Shown piece after piece: positions 29,866-48,295 of a stretch of DNA of 64,000 nt. The stretch's first letter is position 1, and every line of letters begins with the position of its first letter. The translations under genes and the position numbers were made by a program. Where the stretch lies: contig JACEUQ010000003.1 of assembly GCA_024998815.1 (NCBI GenBank), positions 509,900 through 573,899 on the forward strand. Reading direction: 5' to 3'. A model generated the notes under the pieces. That model worked only from the letters and a program-made list of their open reading frames with translations. It was not told the origin of the DNA and searched no databases. This DNA comes from Opitutus sp. (GTDB lineage Bacteria > Verrucomicrobiota > Verrucomicrobiia > Opitutales > Opitutaceae).

Positions 29866-31794
29866 ATGGACGAGTTGCGCGCATCGATGCTGCGTGCGCT
29901 GGAGATTTTGCACGCGGTGCGGGCGTTGTTTGCCTTAAAACCCACGCTCACCCGCGCCGAATTCGGGAGTTTTGTGCGCGATGCGTTGGAGCGGCTGCCC
30001 GAACTGCTCGCGCTGGCGTGGGTGCCGCGCGTGGTCGGCACCCAGCGCGCCCTGTTGGAACAGACCGCACGCGAGGAGGGCGTGGCGGACTTTGCGCTGC
30101 GTGAAATCGATCCCTCCGGGCGACTGCGCAGCAGCGAAGAGCGCTCCGAATATTGGCCGATCACCTACGTCGAGCCCATGCAGGCCAACGGTCAGGTGCT
30201 CGGCCTCGATTTGCGCGCTAATCCGTGTCGCCGCAGTGCGCTTGAACATGCCGCGCTCACCGGTCTGCCCGTAGCCACATCGCCGCTCCGGCTCGCGCAA
30301 CTCGGCCAGCGCCGCCTTGGGTTTCTCGTGGTGATGAGTGTGGGCAACGAGGAAACGGCGACCGCGGGCTGGGTCTCGGCGGCCTTTCGCGTGCAAGGGC
30401 TGGTGGAGCGGATTTTCGCCCCCTTGCTCGCGCGCGGCATTCACCTGGAAATTAGCGACGTAGCCGATGAGTCGATACCGCCGTTTACCGCCGGCGACGC
30501 GGTCGAAGCCCCCGCCTGGCGGCAGGTGCAAGACATGCCCATTGCCGGCCGGGTTTGGCGTTTTGTTTTCGAGCCCGGCCCCCGCTTTTGTGCCAACGAT
30601 CCGGCCTGGCTGGCCCGCGCGGCCGCCGACTTACAGCGCACCAACGCAATCCTTGAACAGCGCGTCGCGGCCCGCACCGCCGACCTCGAGACCGCCAACC
30701 GAGAATTGCGCGAGGAAGCCGCACGGCGTGAAGCCGCCGAACTCGCCCTGGCGCGGGCCGACGCGCAGCTTTCCCACCTCTCGGAAGCCGAGTCGCGCCA
30801 GTGGGGGCTGGCCGGCCTGGTGGGGCGCAGCGAGTGTTTTGGCCGCATGCTGCGCGAGGTGCGGGCGGTGCAAGCCGTCGCTCGGACCACCGTGCTGCTC
30901 ACCGGCGAAAGCGGCACCGGCAAAGAGCTGCTCGCCCGCGCCATTCATTACGGCAGCGCCCGGGCGACCGCGCCGTTTGTGCGGGTTGAATGCGCCACCC
31001 TGCTCGATGAAAAGGCCGAAGTGCTGCTCTTTGGCCAGGAACGCGCGCCGGGCATTCCTGAGCACCGCGGTTACTGCGAACTCGCCGAGGGCGGCACGCT
31101 TTTTTTCGACGAGATTGGTGACCTCGCGCCCCGGCTTCAGGCGCGGTTGCTGCGCGTCATGGAGGACGGCGCCTATCGGCGGGTCGGCTCCGAAAAATCG
31201 CGCACGATGAGCGCTCGAGTCATTGCCGCCACCCACGCCGACTTACCGGCCAAAATCGCCAGCGGCAGCTTCCGCCAAGACCTGTATTATCGGCTCCTGC
31301 ATTATCACATCGCCGTGCCCGCGCTGCGCAACCGCCTCGAAGACGTGCCCCTGCTTGCCCAGCACTTCGTGCGCACGCTCTCGGCCGAACTCAATCGCCC
31401 CGCGCCCCGGTTGCGCCCCGACGCCCTGCAGCGCCTGCTGGCGCACAACTACCCCGGCAACATCCGCGAACTCAAAAACACGCTGGAGCGCTCCATCATT
31501 TATGCGGGCGGCGACGAGCTTGGCGTTGAGCACATCGCCTTCGCGCCCCACGCCGGAACCGCGCCCGCCGATGCGCCCCAGACCGACAGCGGAGCGCACA
31601 GCAAATTTTTGTCGGATCTCCCGTTCAACCTCGCTGAGGCCGAGGCGATTCTGGTGGCCCGCGCCCTCGCCGTTTCAGGCGGAAACCTCTCGCAAGCGGC
31701 GCGCCTCCTCGGGGTCAACCGGGCCAGCCTCTACCGCTGGCAGGATAAAATGCCCCCGGTGGACGGTGCGACCAAGGCCGCCGTAATCCGTTGA
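29866..31794 (+). CDS. CHASE-domain AAA+ transcriptional regulator, NtrC-like, without GAFTGA
   Basis: A 642-residue regulator. Residues ~25-195 form a CHASE domain (LALAWVPRVVGTQRALLEQT, YWPITYVEPMQANGQVLGLD), normally an extracellular ligand-binding module, yet no membrane segment flanks it here. A coiled coil (~255-320) leads to an AAA+ domain with Walker A GESGTGKE (~347), Walker B GGTLFFDEIGDL (~412) and FRQDLYYRL with the Arg finger. Where sigma-54 activators have GAFTGA, this protein reads QERAPGIPEHRGYCEL, so the sigma-54 contact loop is lost. A Fis-type helix-turn-helix ends the protein (NLSQAARLLGVNRASLYRW). It may control sigma-70 promoters, as TyrR does. Start ATG 29866; GTG 29743 is the alternative. 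Allophanate hydrolase follows 33 bases later and is a likely target. Confidence 0.85.
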   Translation: MDELRASMLRALEILHAVRALFALKPTLTRAEFGSFVRDALERLPELLALAWVPRVVGTQRALLEQTAREEGVADFALREIDPSGRLRSSEERSEYWPITYVEPMQANGQVLGLDLRANPCRRSALEHAALTGLPVATSPLRLAQLGQRRLGFLVVMSVGNEETATAGWVSAAFRVQGLVERIFAPLLARGIHLEISDVADESIPPFTAGDAVEAPAWRQVQDMPIAGRVWRFVFEPGPRFCANDPAWLARAAADLQRTNAILEQRVAARTADLETANRELREEAARREAAELALARADAQLSHLSEAESRQWGLAGLVGRSECFGRMLREVRAVQAVARTTVLLTGESGTGKELLARAIHYGSARATAPFVRVECATLLDEKAEVLLFGQERAPGIPEHRGYCELAEGGTLFFDEIGDLAPRLQARLLRVMEDGAYRRVGSEKSRTMSARVIAATHADLPAKIASGSFRQDLYYRLLHYHIAVPALRNRLEDVPLLAQHFVRTLSAELNRPAPRLRPDALQRLLAHNYPGNIRELKNTLERSIIYAGGDELGVEHIAFAPHAGTAPADAPQTDSGAHSKFLSDLPFNLAEAEAILVARALAVSGGNLSQAARLLGVNRASLYRWQDKMPPVDGATKAAVIR

Positions 31795-31827
31795 ATTTCG
31801 ACCCCGTTGACCCTTTAAAAACCAGTC

Positions 31828-33621
31828 ATGTCCGTAAGCTCATCTTCCCTCTCGGCTGAATCGATCACGACCCGCCTCAATGATTACGCTGAGCGTGATC
31901 CCGCCGTGTGGATTTCCCGCCTGTCACTCGCCGAGCTGCGCGTCCAAGCCGAGGCGGCCAACCCCAAAGGTGCGCTCGCCGGGCTGACATTTGCGATCAA
32001 GGACAACATTGACCTGGCCGGCGTGCCCACGACCGCAGCGTGTCCAGGATTTGCCTACACGCCTGCCAAGTCGGCCGGCGTGGTGGAAAAACTGCTGGCC
32101 GCCGGCGCGGTGCCGGTGGGCAAGACCAACCTTGATCAATTCGCCACGGGGCTGGTCGGCGTGCGATCGCCCTACGGAGCGCCGCGCAACGTGTTTAACC
32201 CCGATTACATTTCGGGTGGCTCGTCGAGCGGTTCGGCGGTGGCGGTGGCGGCGGGGCTGGTGGATTTCGCGATCGGCACCGACACGGCGGGATCGGGCAG
32301 GGTGCCGGCGGCCTTTAACGGCATCATCGGGCTAAAACCCACGCGCGGCCGCCTCTCGCCGCGCGGCGTGGTCCCCGCCTGCCGCTCGCTCGACTGCGTC
32401 TCCATTTTCACCCGCGACCTCGCCACCGCCGCCCGCGTACTCACCGCCGCCGAAGGCTTTGACCCCGCAGACCCCTTCTCCCGCCAACCCGAAAAGTGTC
32501 ACCCATTAGGTGACACTTTGGCGGCCGTGCGTCGGCTGGGGGTGCCGAGGGCCGACCAGTTGGAGTGGTTTGGCAACGTCGAGTCGCCGGGGCTGTTTGC
32601 CGCTGCGCTCGACCGTCTGCGCGGGCTCGGGATCGAGATTGTGGAGGTGGACTTCGCCCCGTTCCTCGATGCCGCGCGCCTGCTCTACGAGGGGCCGTGG
32701 ACGGCGGAGCGCTTCGCGGCTGTCGGCGCGTTTATTGAAAACCACCTGCCCGCCAACGGTGCGCCGCTCCGCGCGGACTCGGCCACTCCTGCCGGGCTCG
32801 ACCCGACGGTCACCTCCATCATCCAGAGCGGAAAAACTGCCTCGGCCGCCGACGCCTTTCGCGCCTCCTATCGCCTCGCCGAACTTCGCCGCGCCGCCGA
32901 TGTCATCCTCGCCAGCGTGGACGTCCTCGTCGCTCCCACCGCCGGCACGATTTACACCGTGGCCGAAGTGTTGGCCGACCCGGTGCGACTCAACTCGAAT
33001 CTTGGGCGATATAACAACTTCATGAACCTGCTCGACTTGTGCGGGCTGACGGTGCCCGCCGCGCGTTACTCGTTCGGGCCGGGCTTTGGCATCACCTTCA
33101 TCGCGCCGGCCTGGCACGACGCCCGCCTGCTCGCCCTCGGGGCGCGCTTTCTCGGCGAAGCGGCGCCAGCGGAGTGTCACCTAATAGGTGACACTAAAGG
33201 ATCGGCGGCGGTTGAGACGGTTACCTTGGCGGTGTGCGGGGCGCATTTGAAGGGGCAGGCGTTGCACGGGCAACTCACCGCACTCGGGGCGCAGTTTCTC
33301 GCGGCCACCACCACTTCGGCGCAATATCGGTTGTTCGCGCTCGCCAACACCACGCCGGCGAAACCGGGGCTGATGCGCCTGGGCGGTGGCGAAATCGGGG
33401 CGCCCATCGAGGTGGAAACCTACGCGCTTTCGCCGGAGGCGTTCGGCCGCTTCGTGGCCGCCGTGCCCGCACCCATGGTCACCGGCACGGTGCAACTGGG
33501 CGACGGTACTTGGGTGAAAGGCTTTCTCTGCGAACCCTGCGCACTGATAAACGCTGTTGATATCACCGTTTTGGGCGGCTGGCGCGCGTACCTCGTCCGG
33601 GCGACCGCGGATAAAGCCTAA
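31828..33621 (+). CDS. atzF: Allophanate hydrolase
   Basis: Hydrolyses allophanate to ammonia and CO2, the second step of urea breakdown by the urea amidolyase route. The 597-residue protein has an N-terminal amidase domain with the catalytic Lys58 in TFAIKDNID, GGSSSGSAVAVAAG (~130-143) and TDTAGSGRVPAAFNGIIGLK with the Ser-cisSer-Lys triad. A C-terminal domain (~460-597) with GEIGAPIEVETYALSPEAFG and WVKGFLCEPCAL is typical of AtzF/DUR1,2. Two short in-frame palindromes add CHPLGDT (near 225) and CHLIGDT (near 451), one inside the amidase part and one in the linker before the C-terminal domain. No urea carboxylase is in the window. The stop is followed at once by a palindromic repeat. Confidence 0.93.
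   Translation: MSVSSSSLSAESITTRLNDYAERDPAVWISRLSLAELRVQAEAANPKGALAGLTFAIKDNIDLAGVPTTAACPGFAYTPAKSAGVVEKLLAAGAVPVGKTNLDQFATGLVGVRSPYGAPRNVFNPDYISGGSSSGSAVAVAAGLVDFAIGTDTAGSGRVPAAFNGIIGLKPTRGRLSPRGVVPACRSLDCVSIFTRDLATAARVLTAAEGFDPADPFSRQPEKCHPLGDTLAAVRRLGVPRADQLEWFGNVESPGLFAAALDRLRGLGIEIVEVDFAPFLDAARLLYEGPWTAERFAAVGAFIENHLPANGAPLRADSATPAGLDPTVTSIIQSGKTASAADAFRASYRLAELRRAADVILASVDVLVAPTAGTIYTVAEVLADPVRLNSNLGRYNNFMNLLDLCGLTVPAARYSFGPGFGITFIAPAWHDARLLALGARFLGEAAPAECHLIGDTKGSAAVETVTLAVCGAHLKGQALHGQLTALGAQFLAATTTSAQYRLFALANTTPAKPGLMRLGGGEIGAPIEVETYALSPEAFGRFVAAVPAPMVTGTVQLGDGTWVKGFLCEPCALINAVDITVLGGWRAYLVRATADKA
32495..32517. repeat. TGTCACC palindrome inside atzF, copy 1
   Basis: AGTGTCACCCA then TTAGGTGACACT, a 23-bp palindrome with one mismatch. 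Read in the gene's frame it gives K-CHPLGDT-L. Other copies: 33173-33195, 45058-45079, 48017-48038; a half copy AGGTGACACTTTCG lies at ~42856 at the panE stop. Confidence 0.85.
33173..33195. repeat. TGTCACC palindrome inside atzF, copy 2
   Basis: AGTGTCACCTA then ATAGGTGACACT, followed by AAAGG as at the 45-kb and 48-kb copies. In frame it gives E-CHLIGDT-K. It lies at the joint between amidase domain and C-terminal domain. Confidence 0.88.
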
Positions 33622-33813
33622 CTAGTAGGCAGTAACCTTCGAGTTGTCGCATTCTACCGACCCTGAAAAACCAAAAAAACTTCGATTCATTTAGCCGCGA
33701 AAGAACGCAGAGAACGCATAGAAATACAGGGTTTGTTCTTTGCGCTCCTTGCGTTCTTTCGCGGCCAAACTGCCTTGGTTTGATCCGACACTTTGCATGT
33801 TACTGCCTACTAG
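33622..33813. repeat. GCAGTAAC-ended MITE-like element, complete copy
   Basis: A 192-bp element with inverted ends CTAGTAGGCAGTAAC and GTTACTGCCTACTAG and an inverted inner core: TTAGCCGCGAAAGAACGCAG ... TTGCGTTCTTTCGCGGCCAA around AATACAGGGTTTGTTC. No reading frame. It starts right after the atzF stop. It is the best-preserved member of a family with further copies at ~9070, ~9243, 10040, ~13311, ~34030-34140, 41655 and one end at 48884. Confidence 0.88.
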
Positions 33814-34285
33814 TCGGTAGTCATACTGGAGTTGTCGGATGAAAACAGGTTGTCTCGCGAAGGATTAAAAGGGGGCGAAGGACTGGTCCGATGCCGCCTT
33901 TGCTTGATACTTCTTCCGACTTAAACCCCTTCGCGTGACAAACGGATCGACCTCGGGCTGAAAAATTTCGGCTTTGGGGTTAGGGCTGATCCTAGATCCG
34001 ATACTTTAAAATTAACGCCAAACATCGATCTTTTTAGCCACGAAAGAACGCATAGAAATACAGGGTTTGTTCTTTGCGCCCTTTGCGTTCTTTTGCGGCT
34101 AAACTGCCTTGGTTGGATCCGGCACTTTAAATGTTACTGCCTACTCGTCGGTTCGTGGGCCCTGGATCCCTTTGGGCAAAAACCTTGAGCTCACGCTCAA
34201 GGCCACGGGGAGTGTGTCCAAGCGGGGTGTGGCCTTGAGCGTGAGCTCAAGGATGCGGTAAGACCCACTCGAACCTTAACTAAAC
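33814..34285. repeat. Gap with a second partial MITE and a palindrome
   Basis: 33814-34025 holds nothing recognisable apart from words like GTCGGATGAAAAC. 34030-34146 is the right part of a GCAGTAAC-type element (TTAGCCACGAAAGAACGCAT ... TTTGCGGCTAAACTGCC, ending ATGTTACTGCCTACTCG). 34183-34252 is a GAGCTCACGCTC palindrome, 34 bases from the barrel stop. No gene. Confidence 0.75.
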
Positions 34286-35284
34286 TCAGAACTCGGCGCT
34301 CAGGCTTAGGCCGAGGCCGAGGGTTTTGCTGGTGTAGGCGTAGCCGCCATCATCCGTGCCCTGGGGCTTGCGGAGGTCGTAGCTGGAATACAGGCGGGCC
34401 GAGGCCCAGGGGCGGAGCGTGTAACTCAGGCTCAGGCCGAGGGACGCAGTGATGTCGCGGCGGTTGGCGTCGGAAAAGATCGCTTCCTGGTAGTGGAGGT
34501 AATCGGTGTAACTGACGCGCACGGTCGGGCCGACCGTCCATTTGCCCAGCAAGAGATAATAAGCGGCGTCGGCGGCGTAGTCGGTTTTGTCGTTGCGGTC
34601 GTCGCGGAAAAGCCCGTCGGCGTCATCCGCGGTGGTGACGGCGTAACTCACGCTCGTGCCCAAGCTGAGAATTTGGGTGTCGGAGATGCCGATCATTTTG
34701 CGCAGGCCGAGAGCGGGGGTGTGGGAGCGCAGGATTTGGTGGTAGTTGGTGGCCGGATCGTTGCCGTAAACGGCATTGGTGGTGACGCCCAGGTTGGCCT
34801 CCCAGTTGGCGCCGAAGCGGTAGCGCAGGCCGAAGGGCAGGGAGAAGGAGTCGAAGTCGAGGTTGCTGGAGTCCATGCCTTCGCCGATGCCGTGGTAAAA
34901 CCGTTGGTAAACGAGGCCGACCGAGGGCGTGAGCATGCCTTCGCCGAGGGCCACGGACTTGAATTCGCCGCGCACCGACAGGGTTTGGGCGAGGATGACG
35001 GCGTTTTCTTTAACTGAGCCGGGCGAGACGAGCGTGACGTTGTCGGTGTAATAAAACTGGCCGTCGTAGGCGACGGCGACTTTGACCGGGCTGGTGCGTT
35101 TTTCGGCGATGCGCTGGTTGCCGGCGTCGGCGTCACCGGGGCTGACGGCGACCCCGGGGGCAACGGGAGGGGTGGCCGAGGGAGGAGTGGCCTGCTGGGC
35201 GCGGTCGATGATGGTTTGGCTGGTGTCGGCCGCGAAGAGGGCGGCGGGAGAGGCGAGCAGCGCGAGCAGGAGCGGGTATTTCAT
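34286..35284 (-). CDS. Predicted outer-membrane beta-barrel protein
   Basis: A 332-residue exported protein. Signal peptide to about residue 19 (YPLLLALLASPAALFAAD), a Pro/Ala-rich linker, then from ~65 alternating strands typical of a barrel: VKVAVAYDGQFYYTDNVTLV, LTPSVGLVYQRFYHGIG, SFSLPFGLRYRFGANWEANL. It ends KTLGLGLSLSAEF with a terminal Phe, the usual recognition signal for the Bam machinery. It lies 73 bases downstream of the giant FecR-domain gene on the same strand, so both are probably one unit. Cargo or ligand is unknown. Confidence 0.75.
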   Translation of the reverse strand: MKYPLLLALLASPAALFAADTSQTIIDRAQQATPPSATPPVAPGVAVSPGDADAGNQRIAEKRTSPVKVAVAYDGQFYYTDNVTLVSPGSVKENAVILAQTLSVRGEFKSVALGEGMLTPSVGLVYQRFYHGIGEGMDSSNLDFDSFSLPFGLRYRFGANWEANLGVTTNAVYGNDPATNYHQILRSHTPALGLRKMIGISDTQILSLGTSVSYAVTTADDADGLFRDDRNDKTDYAADAAYYLLLGKWTVGPTVRVSYTDYLHYQEAIFSDANRRDITASLGLSLSYTLRPWASARLYSSYDLRKPQGTDDGGYAYTSKTLGLGLSLSAEF

Positions 35285-35357
35285 TACAAGGAGGCGAAGG
35301 TGGCAGCGTGAGAAGGGCTAGGAGCGGGCGGAAGGGCCGGAATGATGCGTTAGGGAC

Positions 35358-38300
35358 TCAGGGGGCTGTTCGCGTTGTTCCTTGTGCGACGTGGGTGGGC
35401 AGTACGGCCGGCGCGGTTAGGGTGCCGATGGCGATGTTGCCGTTGGCTTTGTTCTGGCTGGTGGCGCCGAACAGATCTGCCGTCGAGGTGAGGGTTTGGG
35501 TGCCGTAGGTCACGTTGCTCACGAAATTAACGCGACCGGGAATGCTTGAGCCGAAGTTAACCCCGCCGGTGTCGCGCGAATTGAGTGATGCGACCGAGCC
35601 GATAGGGAAGGAAACATTGGTCAGGTTGATGGTCGCCGCCGCCATGGTGATGCTGCGGATGTTGTTGGAGAACATCATACCGGTGGAGCTGTTGCCGGTG
35701 AGGTCTATCAGGTCGGCGGCGCGCAGGTAGAGGTCGTGGTTGGTGCCCACCGTGAAGGCGGCGTTGGCGCTAAGGCCCGAGTTGTTGATTTTGAGAAAAC
35801 GGGTGGCGCCAACGTGGAGATCTCCCCCCGAGGAGAAGAGGACGTTAAACATCTCGACGGCAGCGATATTACCATTGGTGAAAAAGAAACTGTTCGGGAC
35901 GCCTGGGGTTACGTTGTAATTAAAGGAGGCGCCCGCTCCCGGGAGGCGAGTTTCATCGATGCGCTCGGTGGTGGCGCGCAGGGCAGCGGGCAGGGCCCCA
36001 TAAGCGGTGAGTAGGCGGTCGAGACCGACGGTGTCAGCCCCGATGATGGAGACCCCGCCGGTGCCGATGATGCCCAGCTCGCGTAGCACCTGTTTGTGGA
36101 ATGCAGGAAGGACAGAAAAAGCGTCAATATTGGCCTTAAGGTCGGCGACGCGGTCAGTGGTGTTGAGCAGCTCGAAGAAGGGGTTGGGGCCGTTGCCCGG
36201 GCCGTTGGGGTCATAGCCACCGAGGATTGCAGCGCTTAAATCCAATTCGATTAGGATGGAAAACTGGGCGTCAGTGAGTCCGTTTAGCAGCATATTAATA
36301 TCTGCTAGCGGACGGAGCGAGGAGGAGCCTCCGCTGATCAGGGGGTTGGCCAGTTCATAGAAATTAATTTTGCTGTCGTGCGTGATGTCCAAATAGGCGC
36401 GGGTGGGGGCGGGCAGGCCGTCGTAGTCGGCGAGGGTGGCGACGAGCGAACCGTGAGGAGTGGAGCCGGTTTCAGCGACGAGGAAGTTCTCCGGGAGCGA
36501 CTCGAAGGAAAGGATGCGGCTGTCCTCCAGCGATTGCCGGAGAGTCGGGTTGGACAGGTAAAATCCGGTCAACTGCTGGACGCGCTGAAGGGCGGTCAAG
36601 CTGGTGTCGGCATACGTTTCACCGGCGAGGTGTTCGTAGAAAATATGGCCAAGCCTGAGGGCGCGGGCGGCGGCTTGTTCGGCCGGATTGAGTGAGTTGT
36701 AGAAAGCAACTGCGCCAGTGATGAGGGCTGAATTGCTGCGGGGCGGGCTGCCGAATTCGTTGACCATGCGTTGGCCAACGCCGAGTTGTTTCATAAGCAG
36801 GCGGTCGGCTTCGGAGGCTTGGTCGAGGGCTTGAACGGCGAGCAGTTGAAGGCTCCCGAAGTTTTGTGGCGATGCATCGAAGTCCTTCATGACGGCATGC
36901 TGGGTTGCCGACAGTCCAGCGATGTTGCTCAGGAACGTCTGTGCGGAGAGACCACTGGCCAGATCGGCAAGATGGCGGCCCGCTCCGGTTGCGCTAATCA
37001 GGGCGATTTCCGAGGGTGAGAACCGCGCCAGCAGGGCCTGAATGTAGCCGGTGCTGGTGTCCATGATGGCGTCGCCGGCGCCCAGATCGATGATGAAGGC
37101 GCGCTCGGTGGCGGTCAGGGCGTTCCAGCTGGCGAGGGTGCGGGCGAAGGCGCCGGGGCTCCACTGCAGCGGATCGGGGCTGCTGGACATGTTCACCAGT
37201 CCCGGGCCCGCCATTTCCTTGACCATGAGGAAGGCGCCGGGGTTGGACTTTTTGAGGTCGTTAAAGGCCGCCAGGTGGGTGCGCAGGTCGGCGAAGGTGA
37301 ACGCCACGCCGGTTTGGGGATCGGGGCGGAGGACGAACACTGCAATGTCGACCTCGTTGAGGGCGACCAACAGGTTTTGGATTTCAGGGTGCAGGGCACG
37401 GAAGGCGGGCCGCAGGGAGTCAGGCAGGCGCTCGAGGAAAAGGTCGAGGGCGGTTTTGGCGGTGACTTCCTTGATGTTAGGGGGGGGGGGCGGAGGAAGG
37501 GTCGAGCCCGGGGGCGGGAGCAGGGGCGGAGGGGCGTCTCCAGGAGGCGGGGCGTCGCCGGGGGCGGGTTCAGGCGGGGGCGCGTCGCTGGTGTCGCGGG
37601 CACCGTCGACCGACTTCTGCGTCTCGGGCGAAATCGTGACGCCCAAATCCTTGGCGGCGGCGAGCGCGTTGTTGAGCGCTTCGGGGGCTACGCTGATGCC
37701 GGCGTCAATCGCGGTGGCGATGGCCGCAATCGTGGTTTCAGCACCCTTTTGCGCGACCTTTTGGTCTTCGGGGGAAAGTTGGCTGATGTTCTCCACCTTC
37801 TGGCTCTGACCGTTGGCCTTGGTCACGGAGAGTTGGCCGGGCGCGAGGGTCATCTTGCTGCCGTCGCTGAAGTTAATCGAAATGGCGCCGTGGGCGACGA
37901 CGATGGTCTGGATGCCGGCCGAGTTGATGCCGACGGTATAGGTGGTGCCGCGCGCACCGGCCAAGCCGCGCGCCGTGCGGATGCTGTAATCGTAGGTGAC
38001 GCCTTCGGGCTTTTGCAGGTCGGAAACGACCGAGCCCTCTTTGAGGTCGAGCACCACTTTTTGGGTGACGTTGGTGTCGGAGGTGCGGTTCTCGGTCGCG
38101 CTTTCGAGCAGCAGCGTGGTGTTGGGGGTGACGATGGACTTGATGCCGGGCATCGGCGTGAGGACCAAGCGGCCGTCGGCACCGGTGACGATGCGCGTGC
38201 CGATGATGACCGTCTCGCCCTTGACGGCGGGACGCAGGGCGGGTTCCTCAGGGCGCTGGACCGAAGCCTGGCCGCTTACAAAGACCACACGCACGCTTTG

Positions 38301-38366
38301 CGCGGCGAGATCGACAACTAGGCAAAAAACGAGGCCTAAGACAACAAACGGGGTAGAAAGTCGCAT
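35358..38366 (-). CDS. Large exported FecR-domain protein
   Basis: A 1002-residue protein with a signal peptide (FVVLGLVFCLVVDLAAQS). A FecR domain at ~25-195 includes VRVVFVSGQASVQRP, VVLDLKEGSVVSDLQKP and GLAGARGTTYTVGINSAG. A Pro-rich spacer at ~260-300 (PPPLLPPPGSTLPPPPPP) leads to ~700 residues I do not recognise, with a last part of beta-solenoid look (GNSSTGMMFSNNIRSITMAA). FecR domains carry signals in the periplasm, classically between an outer-membrane receptor and an anti-sigma factor, but no sigma factor is here. Divergent to it (58 bases apart) is a CHASE2 adenylate cyclase, and downstream is a barrel protein. A link between these three is inferred. Confidence 0.8.
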   Translation of the reverse strand: MRLSTPFVVLGLVFCLVVDLAAQSVRVVFVSGQASVQRPEEPALRPAVKGETVIIGTRIVTGADGRLVLTPMPGIKSIVTPNTTLLLESATENRTSDTNVTQKVVLDLKEGSVVSDLQKPEGVTYDYSIRTARGLAGARGTTYTVGINSAGIQTIVVAHGAISINFSDGSKMTLAPGQLSVTKANGQSQKVENISQLSPEDQKVAQKGAETTIAAIATAIDAGISVAPEALNNALAAAKDLGVTISPETQKSVDGARDTSDAPPPEPAPGDAPPPGDAPPPLLPPPGSTLPPPPPPNIKEVTAKTALDLFLERLPDSLRPAFRALHPEIQNLLVALNEVDIAVFVLRPDPQTGVAFTFADLRTHLAAFNDLKKSNPGAFLMVKEMAGPGLVNMSSSPDPLQWSPGAFARTLASWNALTATERAFIIDLGAGDAIMDTSTGYIQALLARFSPSEIALISATGAGRHLADLASGLSAQTFLSNIAGLSATQHAVMKDFDASPQNFGSLQLLAVQALDQASEADRLLMKQLGVGQRMVNEFGSPPRSNSALITGAVAFYNSLNPAEQAAARALRLGHIFYEHLAGETYADTSLTALQRVQQLTGFYLSNPTLRQSLEDSRILSFESLPENFLVAETGSTPHGSLVATLADYDGLPAPTRAYLDITHDSKINFYELANPLISGGSSSLRPLADINMLLNGLTDAQFSILIELDLSAAILGGYDPNGPGNGPNPFFELLNTTDRVADLKANIDAFSVLPAFHKQVLRELGIIGTGGVSIIGADTVGLDRLLTAYGALPAALRATTERIDETRLPGAGASFNYNVTPGVPNSFFFTNGNIAAVEMFNVLFSSGGDLHVGATRFLKINNSGLSANAAFTVGTNHDLYLRAADLIDLTGNSSTGMMFSNNIRSITMAAATINLTNVSFPIGSVASLNSRDTGGVNFGSSIPGRVNFVSNVTYGTQTLTSTADLFGATSQNKANGNIAIGTLTAPAVLPTHVAQGTTRTAP

Positions 38367-38424
38367 AAAACTTACACTATTGTTTCGTCTAGTGCCTCGG
38401 TTGATACAAGGAATTTTACCTCAG

Positions 38425-40692
38425 GTGAAAATTTCTACGCTTACCCCTGCCTTCTTGCTCAGAATTCCACCGGTTTGGCGCCTGCGAATCGGGGCGAGCC
38501 TGCTGATCGGCACGGCCGTGATGTTGTGCACCGGCGTGCTCCCGCTGCGCCGACTGGAGTGGCTGACGGAGGACTCCCGGTTGCAGTTGCGGGCAAAGTA
38601 CAGCTTCGTGGAACCCACCGGCCAGGTCGTGCTGTTGGAAATCGACCAGCAGTCGTTGGATATTCAGGGTAAATGGCCGTTTGATCGCCAGATTCATGGC
38701 CAGGTTATGGAATGGCTGGGGAAATTCCCCGAAGTGCGCCCCGCGACCATGAGCTGGGATTTTGTGTTTTTGGATGAAGATAGAGATCCGCTCGTTGACC
38801 AAGCGTTTGCGGCGTCCTTGGTCGGTGCGGGTTATCCCATTACGATGGGTGCAAACGCGACCCAAGCCGCCAAGGGGATTTTGGCCCAGGGCAAGCCGGC
38901 CAAGCGGCTCGGGCTGACCGAGCCGCTTGGGCTTCCCCCTGAGGTGGTCAACGCCTTGCCAGATATGAAAGGGTTGCTCATTCCTATCAATCCACTGCTG
39001 AGCGTTAGCCGCTTTGCGCTGCTCGATGCCGATCCTGAGGACGACAGCATCATTCGTAAAATTCCTTTTGTTACGCGGATTGGAACTCGGGTTTTTCCGA
39101 GTTTCGTGCTCGGCACGCTGATGTCGTATTGGAAGGTGGAACCCACGGCGATAACCGTGAAACCGGGCGAGTCCATCGTGCTGCATGCCCCGAACGGTGA
39201 TCATGTCATACCGATTGATCGGGAGGGGTACTACCATCTTAACTACCGCTATGAGGTTGCTGATCCGGTACTGAAAACCGGCGGAATTAAAGGGGTTTCG
39301 TATCAATACGCCTTTGAGGCGTTGGTGGATTGGATGACGCTCGGGAAGTCGGAGAAATCACTGCCAGTGGCAGGCAAGATCCTCGTGGTGGGGCAGACCG
39401 CCAACGGCTTGACCGATATCGGAACAAGCCCGCTTAAGTCCAACAGCGCCAAGGTGCTCGTGCACATCAACGCCATGGAGAACATCCTGCGCGGCGATTA
39501 TCTCATCCGCACCGCGCTTTGGCCGGTATTGGCGGGGATATTACTCATTGGCCTGCTGGCGGCGTGGCTGCTGGACCATTTCCGTACGGTGTACTTTTTC
39601 ACCGTGGGCGGGCTCGTGCTGGCCTTGGGTTTGGTCTCCTGGGGCATGCTGGCGGCGGGCAACCTCATGATTCCGGTGGCCGCTCCGCTCATCGCGTTCC
39701 TCGTGCAGCAGTCGATCGTCACGTTTTTAAAAATCCGCGACGAACAGGCCCAGCGCGACCGCATCCGCAAGATGTTCGGCTCCTACGTCTCGCCCGAACT
39801 CGTGCGCCGCATGGTCGAGACGCGCGTCGAGCCCAAGCTCGGCGGTCACCAGGACGAAATCACCGCGTTTTTCAGCGATATTCAGGGCTTTTCGGCGTTC
39901 TCCGAGGTGCTCTCGCCGGTGGATTTGGTCGATTTGCTCAACGAGTACCTCGGGGCGATGACCGACATTTTGCAGGACAGTGGCGGTGCGCTCGATAAGT
40001 ACATCGGCGACGCGATTGTGGCCATGTTCGGCGGGCTGGTGCCGGTCGCCACGCACGCGCGGCTGGCGTGTGAATCGGCCATCAAGATGCAGATGAGGCA
40101 GGGCGAACTGCGCAAGGAGTGGACGGCGCAGGGCGACCGCTGGCCCGCGCTGGTGCATTCGATGCGCACCCGCATCGGTCTCAACTCGGGCCAGGTGGTG
40201 GTGGGCAACATGGGATCACGTCACCGGTTTAATTTTACGATGATGGGTGACACGGTTAACTTGGCCGCACGCTGCGAAAGCGGAGCCAAAACGTTTGGCG
40301 CCTACACGGTGGCCACAGGCGCGACTGTCGAAGGCGCGCGCGCGGCGGGCTGCGAGTGTGTGTTCCGCGAACTGGACCGCATCGTGGTGAAAGGCCGCAC
40401 CGAGCCGGTGGTGATTTTTGAAATCGTCGCGCTGTCTCCGGTTTATTTGTCGGAGGAGGCGTTCACGTGCCTGGAGTTGTTTGCCAAGGGGCGGGCGCTG
40501 TACCTGAAGCAGGAGTGGGCCGAGGCAAAGCGGTGCTTTGATGCGGCGACGGCGAACGAGCCGCTGAAGCCGGGCCGCGACATGGGCGTGGAATCGAACC
40601 CCTCGCTGATCATGGCGGCGCGGTGCGTGAAAATGGCGGAGCACCCGCCCGGCGCGGATTGGGACGGGGTTTACCGAATGACCACCAAATGA
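38425..40692 (+). CDS. CHASE2-domain adenylate cyclase (class III)
   Basis: Membrane-bound enzyme of 755 residues that makes cAMP. One N-terminal helix (~17-40) is followed by a periplasmic CHASE2 domain (~50-335, VVLLEIDQQSLDIQGKWPFD, HINAMENILRGDYLIR), three helices (~360-455) and a cytoplasmic cyclase domain (~475-655). Catalytic residues are complete: metal ligands Asp485 (FFSDIQGFS) and Asp529 (KYIGDAIVA), transition-state Asn612 and Arg616 (VNLAAR), adenine-selecting Lys525 and Asp609. GTG 38425 is the likely start, with AAGGA 12 bases before; the longer open frame runs antisense into the FecR gene and is not credible. A FecR-like gene overlaps its stop (ATGA). Confidence 0.92.
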   Translation: MKISTLTPAFLLRIPPVWRLRIGASLLIGTAVMLCTGVLPLRRLEWLTEDSRLQLRAKYSFVEPTGQVVLLEIDQQSLDIQGKWPFDRQIHGQVMEWLGKFPEVRPATMSWDFVFLDEDRDPLVDQAFAASLVGAGYPITMGANATQAAKGILAQGKPAKRLGLTEPLGLPPEVVNALPDMKGLLIPINPLLSVSRFALLDADPEDDSIIRKIPFVTRIGTRVFPSFVLGTLMSYWKVEPTAITVKPGESIVLHAPNGDHVIPIDREGYYHLNYRYEVADPVLKTGGIKGVSYQYAFEALVDWMTLGKSEKSLPVAGKILVVGQTANGLTDIGTSPLKSNSAKVLVHINAMENILRGDYLIRTALWPVLAGILLIGLLAAWLLDHFRTVYFFTVGGLVLALGLVSWGMLAAGNLMIPVAAPLIAFLVQQSIVTFLKIRDEQAQRDRIRKMFGSYVSPELVRRMVETRVEPKLGGHQDEITAFFSDIQGFSAFSEVLSPVDLVDLLNEYLGAMTDILQDSGGALDKYIGDAIVAMFGGLVPVATHARLACESAIKMQMRQGELRKEWTAQGDRWPALVHSMRTRIGLNSGQVVVGNMGSRHRFNFTMMGDTVNLAARCESGAKTFGAYTVATGATVEGARAAGCECVFRELDRIVVKGRTEPVVIFEIVALSPVYLSEEAFTCLELFAKGRALYLKQEWAEAKRCFDAATANEPLKPGRDMGVESNPSLIMAARCVKMAEHPPGADWDGVYRMTTK

Positions 40693-41657
40693 GCGCGACG
40701 TTACGCTGGGTTTTCGGCTGCCTGCTGGCTGGGTCGTGCGCGTCGCACGGGGGCGCGCAGGCGCAGGAGGCTGCTGCAGCAGCCGTGGCTACGGAGGTGA
40801 AAGTGCAAGCCTCTGGGGCGGTGAACGCGAACGCGGCTGTGTCGGCGGGCGCGCAAGCGGCAGCGGAACAGGCGCCCACGCTGGGCCACGTGGCTGGGCG
40901 GGTCATGTTGCGGACTTTGAACGCAAAAGGCGGGGCACGGCTGGAGTTTCCCAAAACGGGGCGGCAGCTGGCGGCGGGCGAGGTGTTGATCACGGGCGAC
41001 CAGTCGTTGTTTGAACTGCGCGTGGGCGAGGCGGGTTGGTGGCGGGTGGGGCGGCGGGCGGTGGTGGCACCGCTGGCGGGCGGGGGCGGGGGTTTGACGG
41101 CGGGCACGGCGCTGGTGCGGGTGCCCAAGGGCGCGAGCTGGCGCATCGACGCGGCGCGGGGCTCGGCGCGCCTTGCGGCGGGCCTGTGGTTGTTGCAGGC
41201 GGTGGACAACGAGGGGTTGAAAATCGCCTGCCTGGACGGCCCTGCCGAGCTGTTGGCAATCGGCGAACCCGCCGCTCCGGAGCCGGCGAACGCCAAGGCG
41301 ACTGGGGTGGGCGAGGGGAGCGGGGCGACGGCTGCAACGGGTGTTACGCCGGCGCCGTTGGACCGCTTAAAACTCAACCCCGGTGAGCTGGTGTTTTTGC
41401 GCCCGGGCGGCGCGGCGTTCGGGCCGATTGTGGTGATTTATTTGGAGGAACTCATTGCGACGAGCCGGCTGATAAACGGGTTTCCCGAGCCGTTGCCCGA
41501 GCTGCGTCGCCTGCAGGTTCTGGGGGTGGTGCAACGTCAGCAGCTCAAGGGCGTGACGAACGCGCTGGTCGCCGGCGCGCGCGATGATCAGGGCTTTGAG
41601 GTCGCGGTGCCCAAGGCGCCGGCGAAGCCCGATGCGACTGAGAAGTCCCCCAAGTAG
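40689..41657 (+). CDS. Small exported FecR-like protein
   Basis: A 322-residue protein that starts at ATG 40689, overlapping the cyclase stop by ATGA, so it is translationally coupled. Signal peptide WVFGCLLAGSCASHGGAQAQ, an Ala-rich stretch, then ~65-200 with features of a FecR domain: LGHVAGRVMLRTLNAKGG, GRQLAAGEVLITGDQSLFEL, TALVRVPKGASWRIDAARGS. The C-terminal ~100 residues (ELVFLRPGGAAFGPIVVIYL) are predicted helical and Pro-poor until a Lys/Pro tail. Coupling suggests it works with CHASE2 in the periplasm. The stop TAG is the first bases of a GCAGTAAC-type repeat. Confidence 0.7.
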   Translation: MSATLRWVFGCLLAGSCASHGGAQAQEAAAAAVATEVKVQASGAVNANAAVSAGAQAAAEQAPTLGHVAGRVMLRTLNAKGGARLEFPKTGRQLAAGEVLITGDQSLFELRVGEAGWWRVGRRAVVAPLAGGGGGLTAGTALVRVPKGASWRIDAARGSARLAAGLWLLQAVDNEGLKIACLDGPAELLAIGEPAAPEPANAKATGVGEGSGATAATGVTPAPLDRLKLNPGELVFLRPGGAAFGPIVVIYLEELIATSRLINGFPEPLPELRRLQVLGVVQRQQLKGVTNALVAGARDDQGFEVAVPKAPAKPDATEKSPK

Positions 41658-41841
41658 GCAGTAACATTTAAAGAGTCGGCTCTGCCGGCCCTGAAAAAAC
41701 AGAAAACACTTCGATCCTTTTAGCCGCAAAAGAACGCAGAGAACGCATAGAAATACAGTGTTTGTTCTTTGCGTTCCTTGCGTTCTTTTGCGGCTAAACT
41801 GCTGTGGTTTGATCCGACACTTTGAATGTTACGGCCTGCTA
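41655..41841. repeat. GCAGTAAC-ended MITE-like element, second complete copy
   Basis: Starts TAGGCAGTAACATTTAAAG at 41655 and ends GAATGTTACGGCCTGCTA. Core TTAGCCGCAAAAGAACGCAG / TTGCGTTCTTTTGCGGCTAA around AATACAGTGTTTGTTC. The first TAG is the stop codon of the upstream FecR-like gene. Confidence 0.85.
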
Positions 41842-41942
41842 ATCCGCGCCGGCGACTGCGCTCGCCCGCCCCCAACGCCTGCGCCTGCGAAGGCGCCAAA
41901 ATAGGCTTCCGCCGGGGCGCTGCGTGGCGCGTAATCGGGGGC

Positions 41943-42863
41943 ATGTCTACGTTGTTTAAAACGATCGCGGTGGTCGGCTCGGGAGCGCTCGGGTTGTACT
42001 ACGGCGGGCGGCTGGCGCGGGCGGGCAATGCGGTGCGTTTTCTGGCGCGCAGCGACCTGGCGGTGCTGCGCGCGCGCGGCATCGTGGTGCGCGCCCCGGA
42101 CGGGCACTTTACCTTGCCCGACGTGTCGGTGGCGGCGACGCCGGAGGAGATCGGCCCGGTCGATCTGGTGGTGATCACGCTCAAAGCGACGGCCAACGAC
42201 CAGTTAACGCGGTTGCTGCCGCCGCTACTGCACGCCGGCACGGTGGTCTTGAATCTGCAAAACGGCCTCGGCGTTGACGAGGCCGCGGCCGCCGTAGTGG
42301 GGCCGGAGCGCACGGTGGGTGGGTTGTGTTTTGTGGGGGTTAACCGCGTCGAACCCGGCGTCGTTGAGTGCAAGTTGCCCGGCCAGATTGTGGCGGGGGA
42401 GTTCACCGGAGCATCGCAGGAGCGCACCCGAGCGTTGGCCGACTTGTTTGGGCGGGCCGGGGTGAAGCTGAGCGTGAACGAGTGCCTAGCCGGCGCGCGC
42501 TGGCACAAGCTGGTGTGGAACGTGCCGTTCAACGGCCTGGCGGTGGCTCGCGGCGGTATCAGCACGGCGGATATTCTGGCTTCCGCCGAGCTCACGGCGG
42601 AGGTGTGGGCGCTGATGCGCGAGGTGCAGGCGATCGCGGCGGCGCACGGGGTGGTGATAACCGACGCGTTTTTGAAAGATCAAGTCGAGCGCACTCGGCC
42701 TATGGGTGATTACAAGCCGTCCACGCTGCTCGACTTTTTGGCAGGCAAGCCGCTGGAGCTGGAGCCGATTTGGGGCGAGCCGCTGCGCCGCGCCCAGGCG
42801 AAGGGCCTGCCGGCGCCGCGCCTGCAGGCGCTGTACGCGGCGCTGGCGCAGGTCGGGAGGTGA
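41943..42863 (+). CDS. panE: 2-dehydropantoate 2-reductase (ketopantoate reductase)
   Basis: NADPH-dependent reduction of ketopantoate to pantoate in coenzyme A synthesis. The 306-residue protein has an N-terminal Rossmann motif (IAVVGSGALGLYYGGRLARA), VVITLKATANDQLTRLLPPL, LNLQNGLGVDEAAAAVVG, then NECLAGARWHKLVWNVPFNG with the catalytic Lys and conserved Asn, and the C-terminal PSTLLDFLAGKPLELEPIWG. Start ATG 41943; the open frame extends to 41826 through repeat sequence. Several family members reduce other 2-keto acids, so the exact substrate is probable, not certain. Confidence 0.88.
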   Translation: MSTLFKTIAVVGSGALGLYYGGRLARAGNAVRFLARSDLAVLRARGIVVRAPDGHFTLPDVSVAATPEEIGPVDLVVITLKATANDQLTRLLPPLLHAGTVVLNLQNGLGVDEAAAAVVGPERTVGGLCFVGVNRVEPGVVECKLPGQIVAGEFTGASQERTRALADLFGRAGVKLSVNECLAGARWHKLVWNVPFNGLAVARGGISTADILASAELTAEVWALMREVQAIAAAHGVVITDAFLKDQVERTRPMGDYKPSTLLDFLAGKPLELEPIWGEPLRRAQAKGLPAPRLQALYAALAQVGR

Positions 42864-43284
42864 CACTTTCGCACTCAAAGAAATACAAACGAACCGGTTT
42901 ACCGCTAATGAACGCTAATGGCCGCTAATAAAAACCTGGGATATAGGGCTTCTGCATTAGCGTATCTTAGCGTTCATTAGCGGTTAAAAATCCGGGGTTT
43001 GATGTTTGGTTGCTGGTACGGTGATCGTGAACTGCAGCCAGGTTTTTATGCGTGTGAATGAGAAAGGGTAGCAATCACCGACCCACCGATCGGCATGCCA
43101 GCGGCACCTCCGAGCTCCGTATCGTTCTCGTTCTCTTAATCCTACTCGTTCTCGTTCCGATGCCGATTGCTCGAGGTAAAGCATGCCTTACAGGTATTGT
43201 TTTTAGGGCCATCCTCCGCCTTCCAGTCCTTAGCCTTGCCGTAGTGAGCCCGGCACGCCTGTCTGCCCTGAGTTTTCTTCTCCC
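42864..43284. other. Gap with a GCTAATGAACGCTAATG palindrome
   Basis: At the panE stop is a half copy of the TGTCACC palindrome (AGGTGACACTTTCG). 42898-42990 is an inverted repeat: TTTACCGCTAATGAACGCTA at the left and TTAGCGTTCATTAGCGGTTA at the right around CCTGGGATATAGGG. 43120-43200 has GTTCTCGTTC words and CATGCCTTACAGG, a word shared with 51810 and 52020. No gene. Confidence 0.65.
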
Positions 43285-44565
43285 ATGTCCTTCTTCATCA
43301 TCCTTGTTCTGGCCTCCGCATTGATTTTCGCCTGGCTGAAAATCTGGTCGCATCGGCAGGCGGTGCGGGCCTTGGAGCAGGCGATTTTTCGCAAGCAGCC
43401 GCTGTTGAGCGAAGACCTTCCCGGGGCGGCCGGTTCGGCGTGGGAGCGGCTGCGCGTGGCGGGCAACGAGCTCATCGCCGAGTGCGCTCAGTTGCAGCAG
43501 CAGCGCACCGGGCAGCTCGCCCAGCTTGAGGCCACCTTGGGTAGCTTGCAGGAGGGCGTGCTCATCGTGGATGCCAACAACTACGTGCTGCTCGCCAACA
43601 AGGCCATCCAGGCCATATCGCCGCGTCCGGCCCACCAAATCATCGGCCACCGCCTCGAACTGGTTCTCCACAGCGCGGCGTTTTTGACCCACGTCGAGGC
43701 CATTCGCCGGGGCAGGTCGCGGCCCCAGCAGGAGGTCGAATTTGTCGAGGCAGGGCGCACAACGTGGTTGGAGGTCACCGGCACCACCATCCCCAGCCAA
43801 AATGGGGAGCGCGGGCTGTGGACGATTTTTGTGCTACACGACATCACCAAGCAGAAGCAGCTGGAGGTCGTTCGCAAAGATTTCGTCGCCAACGTGTCGC
43901 ACGAGTTGCGCACCCCGCTGTGTGTGATCAAGGGCTACGTGGAAACCCTCGTCGATGGCCACGCCGATATCCCGGCCGACGACCGTGAGCGTTTTTTGAA
44001 AACGATCCAGCGGCACACCGAGCGGCTCAACTCACTGCTGGAGGATCTGCTGGTGTTGTCGCGCTTGGAGTCGATCAACCCGGGGCTTAAGCGTGAGATC
44101 ACCGACCTGCCGGCGTTGCTCACCGCGATCATCGACGACTACCGAGGCCGTCCTGCCGCCGCCGGCCACACGCTGGAGTGGGTCAATGACCCGGGGCTTG
44201 TGCCGTTCGGCCTTGATCCGCTGAAGTTCACGCAAGTGGTGGAAAACCTCGTGGACAACGCGCTCAAGTACACGCCGAAGGGGTCGCGCATCCAGCTGGC
44301 GACCCGCCTACACACGGCGGACGAAGTGGTGGTGAGCCTGCGCGACAACGGGCCGGGCATTCCGGCGGAATATTTGCCGCACCTATTCGAGCGGTTTTAC
44401 CGGGTGGACAAGGGGCGTTCGAGGGAGACGGGCGGGACGGGTTTGGGGCTGTCGATCGTGAAGCACATTGTGCAACTGCACGGCGGCCGGGTGTGGGTGG
44501 AGAGCCAGCTCGGGCAGGGCACGACGTTTTTTGTCTGCGTGCCGCTGAGGTCGGGTGGCAAGTAG
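43285..44565 (+). CDS. PhoR-like sensor histidine kinase
   Basis: A 426-residue membrane kinase with one N-terminal helix (FFIILVLASALIFAWLKIW), a PAS domain (~80-195, LGSLQEGVLIVDANNYVLLA), HisKA with the phosphorylated His in NVSHELRTPLCVIKGYVETL (~205-270), and an ATPase domain with N box VVENLVDNALKYTPKGSRIQ, G1 DNGPGIP and G2 GGTGLGLSIVKHI. The layout with little periplasmic sequence resembles PhoR, the phosphate sensor, but no response regulator or pst gene is next to it, so the partner and signal stay open. The frame and all motifs are intact. Confidence 0.9.
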   Translation: MSFFIILVLASALIFAWLKIWSHRQAVRALEQAIFRKQPLLSEDLPGAAGSAWERLRVAGNELIAECAQLQQQRTGQLAQLEATLGSLQEGVLIVDANNYVLLANKAIQAISPRPAHQIIGHRLELVLHSAAFLTHVEAIRRGRSRPQQEVEFVEAGRTTWLEVTGTTIPSQNGERGLWTIFVLHDITKQKQLEVVRKDFVANVSHELRTPLCVIKGYVETLVDGHADIPADDRERFLKTIQRHTERLNSLLEDLLVLSRLESINPGLKREITDLPALLTAIIDDYRGRPAAAGHTLEWVNDPGLVPFGLDPLKFTQVVENLVDNALKYTPKGSRIQLATRLHTADEVVVSLRDNGPGIPAEYLPHLFERFYRVDKGRSRETGGTGLGLSIVKHIVQLHGGRVWVESQLGQGTTFFVCVPLRSGGK

Positions 44566-45052
44566 CGCAAAAGCTGAGGTGGGAAGTAGCGCAGACTTCC
44601 AGTCTGCATCGGGGGCTTGGGGCGGACGTGAATGGCACTGAGTTAGGCGGGGCCATCGTCGTTTTCGGTTAAGGCGCCCCTTCAGGGCAGGTGTACCTTA
44701 ATCCATGATTCCTAGGGCGTTGCCCTAGGCTTGGATCGAGTGCCCCTTTGGGGCGGTCGGGCCCCAACTAAGTGCCATTCAGGCCTAACTAAGTACCATT
44801 CGGGTCAGACGTGAATGGCAATTAGTTAGGCCCGACCACCCCAACGGGGCTCACTACCACAGCCTAGGGCAACGCCCTAGGAATCATGAGGTAAAGTGCA
44901 CAAGCCCTGAAGGGGCGATCTAACCAGGACGGACGATAACACCCCTTAACTAAGTGCCATTCCAGCCAGTCCCCGTTTGACCCCTGCCCTTTCAGGTGCG
45001 GTCCCGCACAACCGCCACGGTAACCGCCTCAGCCCGCCAATCCTTTGCCAAT
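44566..45052. repeat. Two head-to-head MITE-like elements
   Basis: 44585-44607 is the AGCGCAGACTTCCAGTCTGC family. 44630-44779 and 44813-44963 are ~150-bp units in inverted orientation. Each is bounded by GAATGGCACTTAGTTAGG-like ends, and inside each are ATTCCTAGGGCGTTGCCCTA or its inverse, GCCCCTTTGGGGC-like and CCCTGAAGGGGC-like hairpins. No reading frame. 44970-45052 contains nothing recognisable. Confidence 0.8.
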
Positions 45053-45092
45053 CCTTTAGTGTCACCTATTAGGTGACACCTGGAGTTTGGCC
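45053..45092. repeat. 40-bp inverted repeat, left border of the mobile block
   Basis: CCTTTAGTGTCACCTATTAG, then GTGACACCTGGAGTTTGGCC. Its inverted copy at 48004-48043 matches at 39 of 40 positions, the single difference being in the centre of the TGTCACC palindrome. Confidence 0.88.
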
Positions 45093-45129
45093 CCAAAAGC
45101 AGGTGGATGCGAAGCGGCCGGAGGCCCGG

Positions 45130-46542: not shown

Positions 46543-46796
46543 AAGTCGTCCCAGCCGATCGGATAAACCCAACTGGACTTTTTTTTAACGCCTACGTCCA
46601 CCAGCTCGGGCGTGACCGGCATAACGGGCGCGACCAGACTGCGTGAGAGGACCAAATGATGCGCGTCGGTGACGGTCCACTCGACGGCCTCCGACTTGGC
46701 GAACCCCATCGTCTGGGCGATGGAAGCGGGTAATGTCACATACCACTGCTCACTGTTTTTGCGGATGATGCGCTGAACTTTGGTGGTGGTGCTCAT
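46539..46796 (-). CDS. AbrB/SpoVT-type DNA-binding protein upstream of the transposase
   Basis: An 85-residue protein. Residues ~3-50 (VQRIIRKNSEQWYVTLPASI, TMGFAKSEAVEWTV) fit the swapped-hairpin fold of AbrB/MazE proteins: the R-K-N...LPASIAQ-x-G core is their hallmark. Such proteins bind DNA as dimers and often act as repressors or antitoxins. Its TGA overlaps the ATG of the transposase (ATGA), so it is likely the regulator of that transposase. Start ATG 46794-46796; the open frame to 46850 lacks similarity. Confidence 0.75.
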   Translation of the reverse strand: MSTTTKVQRIIRKNSEQWYVTLPASIAQTMGFAKSEAVEWTVTDAHHLVLSRSLVAPVMPVTPELVDVGVKKKSSWVYPIGWDDL

Positions 46797-46880
46797 GGTC
46801 CGACACCATCGTTCATGGCCACGCTTTTTCCCATGGGCCCGACGCCCCATTTATCTCTACGGCCTTCTCCGGGCCAACTA

Positions 46881-47995: not shown

Positions 47996-48295
47996 TAGTC
48001 AGAGGCCAAACTCCAGGTGTCACCTATTAGGTGACACTAAAGGGTTGGCCCTGGAGACTGGATCGGCGGGTGAGAAAGGGGGGCGGGGGGGGGGCTGGCC
48101 GTGGTTTTGTTGTTTTTGAGTGTTCGAAAAGTTCAAGGACCCCTAGAGGCACGCGGCGCGCCTCTCCAACACCAGAGTACCCGGATTTTACCACTGTCGG
48201 CCAACCTTGGGCTGGATTCGGCCTGGCCGCTCCGGTCGGTTCCCCATCTTCGGGATTGAGCACCGCCGCCGCCCTGCGTAACACCTCAGCACTTC
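47996..48295. other. Gap before trmB, with the right border repeat
   Basis: 48004-48043 is the right 40-bp inverted repeat of the mobile block, with the TGTCACC palindrome at 48017-48038. 48080-48095 has a poly-G tract. The remaining 48100-48295 shows no gene that I can support. Confidence 0.7.
48004..48043. repeat. 40-bp inverted repeat, right border of the mobile block
   Basis: GGCCAAACTCCAGGTGTCAC, then CTATTAGGTGACACTAAAGG, the inverse of 45053-45092 with one mismatch. Just outside the AbrB/transposase genes and IS630 copy 2. Confidence 0.88.

Follow-up and report, generated by a model that had tools for sequence, protein, structure and literature searches.

Bacterial palindromic repeats are usually regarded as elements that spread by jumping and then decay. 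DNA uptake sequences are short repeated words that are tolerated in genes and form dialects between relatives, in far more and shorter copies than the repeat described here. Among the systems closest to this repeat, intragenic REPs have been reported, those of the GTAG type most frequently in Opitutus terrae, with both uvrA genes included; in the accessible part of that paper, the short RPE-4 and RPE-6 are equated with CGTC REPs, and the recB genes of two Xanthomonas species are described as carrying different REPs at roughly matching sites (PMC3733652). Different REP classes have also been found beside the orthologous RAYTs of relatives, according to the available portion of Nunvar et al. 2013 (PMC3686654). 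In the open-licence literature, searched by topic and not by the letters of the palindrome, nothing closer came up than these two papers and that on the Rickettsia palindromic elements (PMC10969869), as far as the accessible text of the three goes. Here, we describe from Opitutaceae a dispersed, partly genic palindrome that has a species-wide spelling and changes in place at many shared sites.

The palindrome in the window and its genome

The window is the whole stretch of DNA that was analysed (64,000 nt). It belongs to a 4.24-Mb genome in 3 contigs (G000), which was compared with its congeners (G001–G012; 13 genomes of the genus in total). A sequence-only reading of the window had described four TGTCACC palindromes, and all four are where it placed them: the window holds four copies of AGTGTCACC-N5-GGTGACACT, which give eight strand matches at four places with at most three mismatches, compared with none in 100 shuffles. 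Two of the copies lie within atzF, in the frame that reads CHxxGDT.

31828-33621, + strand: atzF-like allophanate hydrolase, an ORF of 597 aa that hosts palindrome copies 1 and 2
32495-32517, no strand assigned: palindrome copy 1, AGTGTCACCCATTAGGTGACACT, inside atzF
33173-33195, no strand assigned: palindrome copy 2, inside atzF, in the linker past the amidase part

Copy 1, which has perfect 11-bp arms (32493-32519), is translated as K-CHPLGDT-L (KCHPLGDTL) and copy 2 as E-CHLIGDT-K (ECHLIGDTK), both within the open ORF, as the sequence-only reading had claimed. As read from its letters, the palindrome has a single stop-free phase, the remaining two phases having stops on either strand, and both atzF copies read CHxxGDT because of this one open phase. 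The best solved relative of the product is the allophanate hydrolase 4gyr (E 1.6e-169). The sequence-only reading had proposed a comparison with orthologues to see if the peptide is an insertion. It is missing from all 18 atzF orthologues compared from other genera of the same family, but a clean insertion could not be demonstrated in atzF, since the linkers that hold the two sites vary in length, and the linker is nearly as long as that of the solved relative. In the congener G001, atzF reads NCHLIGDT and CNLISDK at the two palindrome places. Stop codons were flagged within three homology matches, namely, G001 atzF, G012 M32, and G011 Nnr.

A count over the whole of G000 gave 59 exact copies of GTGTCACC-N5-GGTGACAC and none of the backward pattern, which is far above chance. 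The core of the repeat, TGTNACYNAWTNRGTNACA, is 21 bp long and reaches about 43 bp when the common outer arms are included; 50 of the 59 exact copies have the TATTA/TAATA centre in common, and the flank consensus is roughly CCAA.CC.AAA. For 58 of the 59 exact copies, the surrounding sequence was read, and a further copy was found in L228. Of these 58, 21 sit in ORFs with known relatives, always in the sole stop-free phase, a count that covers the open phase only. Under a looser ORF rule, 24 of 56 copies were coding, the 56 being those that fit the generic centre, which leaves out three exact copies whose centres differ. Closely spaced inverted pairs are few in G000. No Rfam family matched positions 31500-48500 of the window above its gathering score, and a known RNA family was therefore rejected as the identity of the palindrome.

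The host genes comprise uvrA, a thiamine-phosphate synthase-like gene, a DinG/Rad3-type helicase, Nnr, a methyltransferase, a P-type ATPase, an HPPK/aminodeoxychorismate synthase fusion, an M32 carboxypeptidase, and TatD, together with hosts of several copies, namely, an RND permease (four), an OleD-like reductase (two), an HtrA-like protease (two), RsmE (two), and atzF (two). Of the 21 coding copies, three lie close to the N-terminus, possibly ahead of the true start, namely, the first copy in the reductase and the two in the protease. In the M32 carboxypeptidase, the copy falls in an 18-residue stretch without a counterpart in the solved relative 5giv; in UvrA, it falls in a 67-residue stretch that is 7 residues long in two solved UvrAs; and the copies in TatD, Nnr, and atzF occupy linkers or alignment gaps. 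The P-type ATPase had no match among solved structures at 1e-40. The RND permease ORF carries its four palindromes at a spacing of 90–91 bp (L154:2534-2824), and three palindromes stand at the same spacing around the start of the HtrA-like protease ORF (L172:2550-2751).

Other repeats were seen in the same stretches. A second hairpin, CCTTGAGC-N-GCTCAAGG, gave 166 strand matches in the fetched G000 stretches and 28 in the window, its sites numbering about half of the strand matches because it is self-complementary, and some stretches overlapping. A GTAG-type REP, GTAGCGCAGACT..AGTCTGC, occurs 29 times in the fetched G000 stretches, some of which overlap, and three times in the window.

The remaining two copies of the window had been placed at the borders of a block at 45–48 kb. 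They are located there, bracketing a single insert with outer arms CCTTTA...TAAAGG, and probably derive from one original site, so that the window would hold three independent sites, not four.

45059-45079 (copy 45058-45080), no strand assigned: palindrome core left of the insertion sequence, by pattern match
45080-48016, no strand assigned: DDE_5-type insertion sequence, ends CTGGAGTTTGGCC / GGCCAAACTCCAG
45130-46572, - strand: DDE_5 transposase ORF within the insertion sequence
46924-47991, + strand: IS630-like transposase ORF (DDE_3 and helix-turn-helix), which splits the DDE_5 insertion sequence
48017-48037 (copy 48016-48038), no strand assigned: palindrome core right of the insertion sequence, by pattern match

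The ends of this DDE_5 insertion sequence recur about 1.8 kb apart elsewhere, and other copies of the element were found at L147, L164–L166, L173, and L209–L226. A perfect stem of at least 7 bp was present within 40 bp outside 73 of 84 element ends (fraction in random stretches, 0.04), the 84 including ends nested in other copies and being taken from selected stretches. The insertion sequence was rejected as the mover of the palindrome, because it adjoins hairpins of many sequences and leaves a hairpin on both sides. As to a MITE of a resident insertion sequence, no element with this palindrome as its end was recognised, and the DDE_5 element appears to use the palindrome as a target. Both the insertion sequence and a short derivative of it mostly have a hairpin on each side of the insert, and a target duplication that covers an entire hairpin looks unusual. 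At one place, G001 has one palindrome (L276) where G000 has inserts between copies (L147). At L176, a short insertion element abuts a GTGTCACC copy with its left end and has by its right end a hairpin of similar centre and different arms, AAGGCTAACCCAATAGGTTAGCCTT (L176:3012-3036).

Species spellings at shared sites

Many of the copies recur at matching positions in the congeners, spelled in dialects that differ by species: TGTCACC/GGTGACA, TGTCACTT/AAGTGACA, and TGTAACTT/AAGTTACA. Exact counts of the GTGTCACC-type and TTGTNACTT-type spellings were 59/0 in G000, 0/48 in G001, 9/22 in G002, 0/49 in G004, 7/19 in G005, 0/4 in G006, 11/50 in G007, 15/0 in G008, 16/58 in G010, and 0/0 in G003, G009, G011, and G012; both spellings thus coexist in G002, G005, G007, and G010.

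Sites were mapped between species by flanking homology, using stretches fetched around the copies of four genomes (58 of 60 copies covered for G000, 51 of 56 for G001, 16 of 16 for G008, and 59 of 81 for G010). Occupied places, as a fraction of those mapped, were 13/13 in G001, 15/15 in G010, and 9/10 in G008 when mapped from G000; 27/27 in G010, 13/15 in G000, and 8/11 in G008 from G001; 25/25 in G001, 12/16 in G000, and 9/13 in G008 from G010; and 8/9 in G010, 7/8 in G000, and 8/8 in G001 from G008, fractions that are overstated, since the stretches of G001, G008, and G010 were chosen around known copies, that refer to a searched interval of usually about 300 bp (1–2 kb in a few cases), and in which duplicates share places (13 G000 copies on 12 G001 places and 15 on 12 G010 places). 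For 20 of the 37 G001 stretches, no match to any G000 copy region was found. Base-level alignments support the same place at M32, TatD, Nnr, the helicase, and atzF, among others, and are poor at reductase site 2 and L176. In regions where two species each have a copy, the two mostly coincide in place, and many copies are old. The word "mobile", used in the sequence-only reading, thus describes at best the past of many copies, as most mappable congener sites are occupied in both species and usually respelled.

The spelling differed at 12 of the 13 sites paired between G000 and G001 and at 14 of the 15 paired between G000 and G010, the exception in both cases being atzF site 1; it also differed at 26 of the 27 sites mapped from G001 to G010 and at 7 of the 8 occupied sites (9 mapped) from G008 to G010. 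All nine sites paired between G000 and G008 share CC/CC. The place of atzF copy 1 is occupied in G001 and G010 with TGTCACC/GGTGACA retained in both, so that TGTCACC stands in all three genomes compared, which makes this one of the sites that depart from the main spelling of a genome, and the place of copy 2 reads TGTAACTTAATAAGTGACA (gene sense) in G001 and TGTCACTTAATAAGTGACA in G010. Loop orientation, judged by eye, was uninformative as a marker of in-place change.

The M32 gene was aligned over the 13 genomes of the genus by homology and not by pattern. The site is present in eight of them and absent from five, and seven of the eight sites have perfectly paired arms, in three spellings: AAAGTGTCACC/GGTGACACTTT in G000 and G008, TTTGTCACTT/AAGTGACAAA in G002, G004, G007, and G010, and TTTGTAACTT/AAGTTACAAA in G001; G012 has an imperfect word. 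The M32 gene tree places G008 and G010 as sisters (support 95), although they spell the site differently. The aligned stretch is 55 residues long in four congeners with the site and 48 in four without it, a difference of exactly 7 codons, which may represent one event, as the four without the site form one clade and the other genomes have other lengths. Nnr gave no clear second length test, since the unoccupied gene of G008 is as long as those of G001, G002, and G007; the genes of G005 and G006 are 9 codons shorter. Altered remnants of the palindrome are kept in the Nnr genes of G012 and G011. Both G012 sites that were read (L230:2779 and L390:1574) are AGTCTAACACAATGGGT, an imperfect palindrome and perhaps another dialect.

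When the fourth core base was left free in the pattern search of G001, this base was only A or C in the 51 copies examined, with 36 copies A/A, 13 mixed, and 2 C/C. All nine mixed copies in coding ORFs (seven in G001 and two in G010) read N...D and none H...Y (binomial p 0.004); that is, the left arm, read in the coding sense, has the A (His to Asn), and the Asp codon of the right arm is retained. Because mixed copies occur and all nine coding ones keep Asp, the spelling shifts one arm at a time, and the peptide appears to resist one of these changes. Mixed copies accounted for 7 of the 16 G001 copies in genes and 6 of the 35 outside (p 0.08), an excess in genes that is suggestive only. Several intergenic G001 copies precede T-runs and look terminator-like by eye.

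In the family as a whole, 62 of 150 genomes, representing 28 of 49 genera, have the generic motif, the reversed motif gave no hits, and at least 43 of 80 palindrome stretches, among the matches listed, came from Opitutae/Verrucomicrobia records. All 19 copies in G101 are TGTCACTTAATAAGTGACA, all five in G034 are TGTAACCCAATAGGTTACA, and most of the 24 in G146 have TGTAACC. The 23 copies in G144 have T opposite G in the stem, a dialect that would suggest that what is recognised is a folded single strand, either RNA or DNA; 18 of them form nine pairs 45–87 bp apart, of which seven are inverted. A further spelling in this genome, AGTGTCACGTAATACGTGACACT, occurs at L319:3180 in the flank of a Y1_Tnp gene, more than 1 kb away.

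What may set the spelling

We consider the repeat to be a REP/RPE-like palindrome that is recognised by a putative trans-acting factor and rewritten in place as the preference of that factor drifts, and we give this a probability of about 0.5. An interspersed palindromic repeat would have spread through Opitutaceae and entered linkers, loops, and intergenic gaps. Since read-through in genes is limited to the single stop-free phase, each genic copy that is read would add CHxxGDT-like residues. As the four-genome comparison shows, many sites stayed in place while the genus diverged, and the shared sites were rewritten there to the species-wide spelling, with both arms changing via half-changed intermediates. 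We infer that a trans-acting factor sets the spelling: each cell would contain a sequence-specific factor, either transposase-like or a protein that binds hairpins or DNA, and the sites would follow its drifting preference, either through selection for binding or through steered repair. Alternatively, the spelling might be pulled by repair and conversion under the guidance of a nuclease or transposase. Counting against in-place rewriting are the mapping bias, the off-spelling of atzF site 1, and the mixed spellings of the four genomes named above; moreover, half-changed copies could alternatively have arisen by partial gene conversion, and the closely spaced inverted pairs of G144 (7 of 9) point to REPIN-like mobility instead of rewriting. 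Many sites can nevertheless be traced through the genus while the spelling changes jointly, even in coding sequence at the cost of amino acids, and this provides a site-by-site record of the rewriting of a dispersed repeat. A comparison of species in which the palindrome is retained, altered, or lost offers a means of seeking the putative factor.

It is possible, at considerably lower odds, that the palindromes are chromosome-wide binding sites of an undescribed Opitutaceae DNA- or hairpin-binding protein with a cellular role, the specificity of which drifts and drags the sites with it. The richest members have approximately 50–80 palindromes per genome. If this were true, the genic sites would pit DNA spelling against protein sequence.

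Somewhat more doubtful is an ordinary mobile RPE/REP-like element, of which fresh insertions continue and hit the same hot spots with the current version of each species. It would account for the presence and absence of the M32 site between congeners and its 7-codon length step, for copies 90 bp apart in two genes, and for the closely spaced pairs in G144 and G010, and the 20 of 37 G001 stretches without a G000 match indicate that many sites are not shared or were not found. However, all mapped places were occupied from G001 to G010 (27/27) and from G000 to G001 (13/13), in a mapping biased to occupied sites, and half-changed arms are not expected of a fresh insertion.

Homogenisation, in which gene conversion among copies is joined by hairpin-templated correction of one arm by the other, is unlikely, although the concerted spelling within genomes would fit it. 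The outer arms speak on both sides. When the ten bases beyond each arm were compared with arms re-dealt among copies, the 21 non-coding G000 copies away from insertion sequences paired above the re-dealt value (0.581 vs 0.473; 0 of 1000), whereas the 21 coding copies showed no average excess (0.405 vs 0.391; 365 of 1000). Arms extended by at least 8 bp were found in 14 of 58 copies in G000 (about 1 expected) and 8 of 48 in G001 (0.7 expected), but the single outer positions of G001 hardly exceed re-dealt arms. Furthermore, the repeat is merely 21–43 bp long, and fast correction between arms predicts few half-changed copies, of which G001 has 13 among 51.

It is very improbable that the palindrome is the REP of a RAYT system (REPtron/REPIN). 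Y1_Tnp genes are present in 11 of the 13 genus genomes, among them the nine that have one or both of the counted spellings, REP classes differ among relatives with orthologous RAYTs in the accessible text of PMC3686654, and G144 has inverted pairs. Against this, the generic palindrome was found at none of the 38 Y1_Tnp loci read, which are part of the matches and have flanks of about 1.5 kb (shorter at contig ends); these loci carry other hairpins, as several do in their flanks, or none, and RAYT was rejected as the mover. The palindrome-bearing G029 and G058 had no Y1_Tnp match, and the GTAG tag was lacking (5 of 58 copies; chance fraction, 0.26). Finally, chance or a conserved atzF protein motif, for which nothing speaks beyond the short peptide, is refuted by counts in excess of shuffles and the reversed pattern, by unrelated host genes, and by the 18 non-congeneric orthologues without the peptide.

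Comparison with known repeat systems

The sequence-only reading likened the repeat to the palindromic elements of Rickettsia genes. The likeness holds in that palindromes stand in frame in many unrelated genes, far above chance (here, 21 of 58 exact copies); it does not extend to length, as those elements measure about 150 bp in the accessible part of PMC10969869, compared with a core of 21 bp, or about 43 bp, here. Rickettsia is alphaproteobacterial, and the resemblance is one of features. RPE-4 and RPE-6 would fit the palindrome by length only. With DNA uptake sequences, the difference is that the Opitutaceae repeat consists of about 60 copies of a long palindrome.

The species-specific spellings of one palindrome family resemble the REP classes of Nunvar et al. 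(PMC3686654), which, in the available portion of that paper, are tied to RAYTs, unlike the Opitutaceae palindrome, for which no RAYT link was found at the loci read. The REPs that Di Nocera et al. 2013 (PMC3733652) reported inside genes of Opitutus terrae are alike in being palindromes of 20–40 bp in genes, in the same family and with uvrA among the hosts, but in the accessible text they have a GTAG or CGTC tag at one end, and the Opitutaceae palindrome has neither. GTAG or GTGG occurred within 20 bp of the same 5 of 58 copies given above, and CGTC or TGTC outside the stem of 7 of 58 (chance fraction, 0.24); inside the stem, TGTC occurs in both arms and not at one end only. Because these tag tests and the RAYT-neighbour test failed, the palindrome is filed as neither a GTAG nor a CGTC REP. 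A genome-wide respelling at shared sites, accompanied by half-changed copies, is not described for the REPs in the part of PMC3733652 available to us. Intragenic REPs in Opitutaceae are already published in that source, and the best reading of the palindrome itself is that it is REP/RPE-like.
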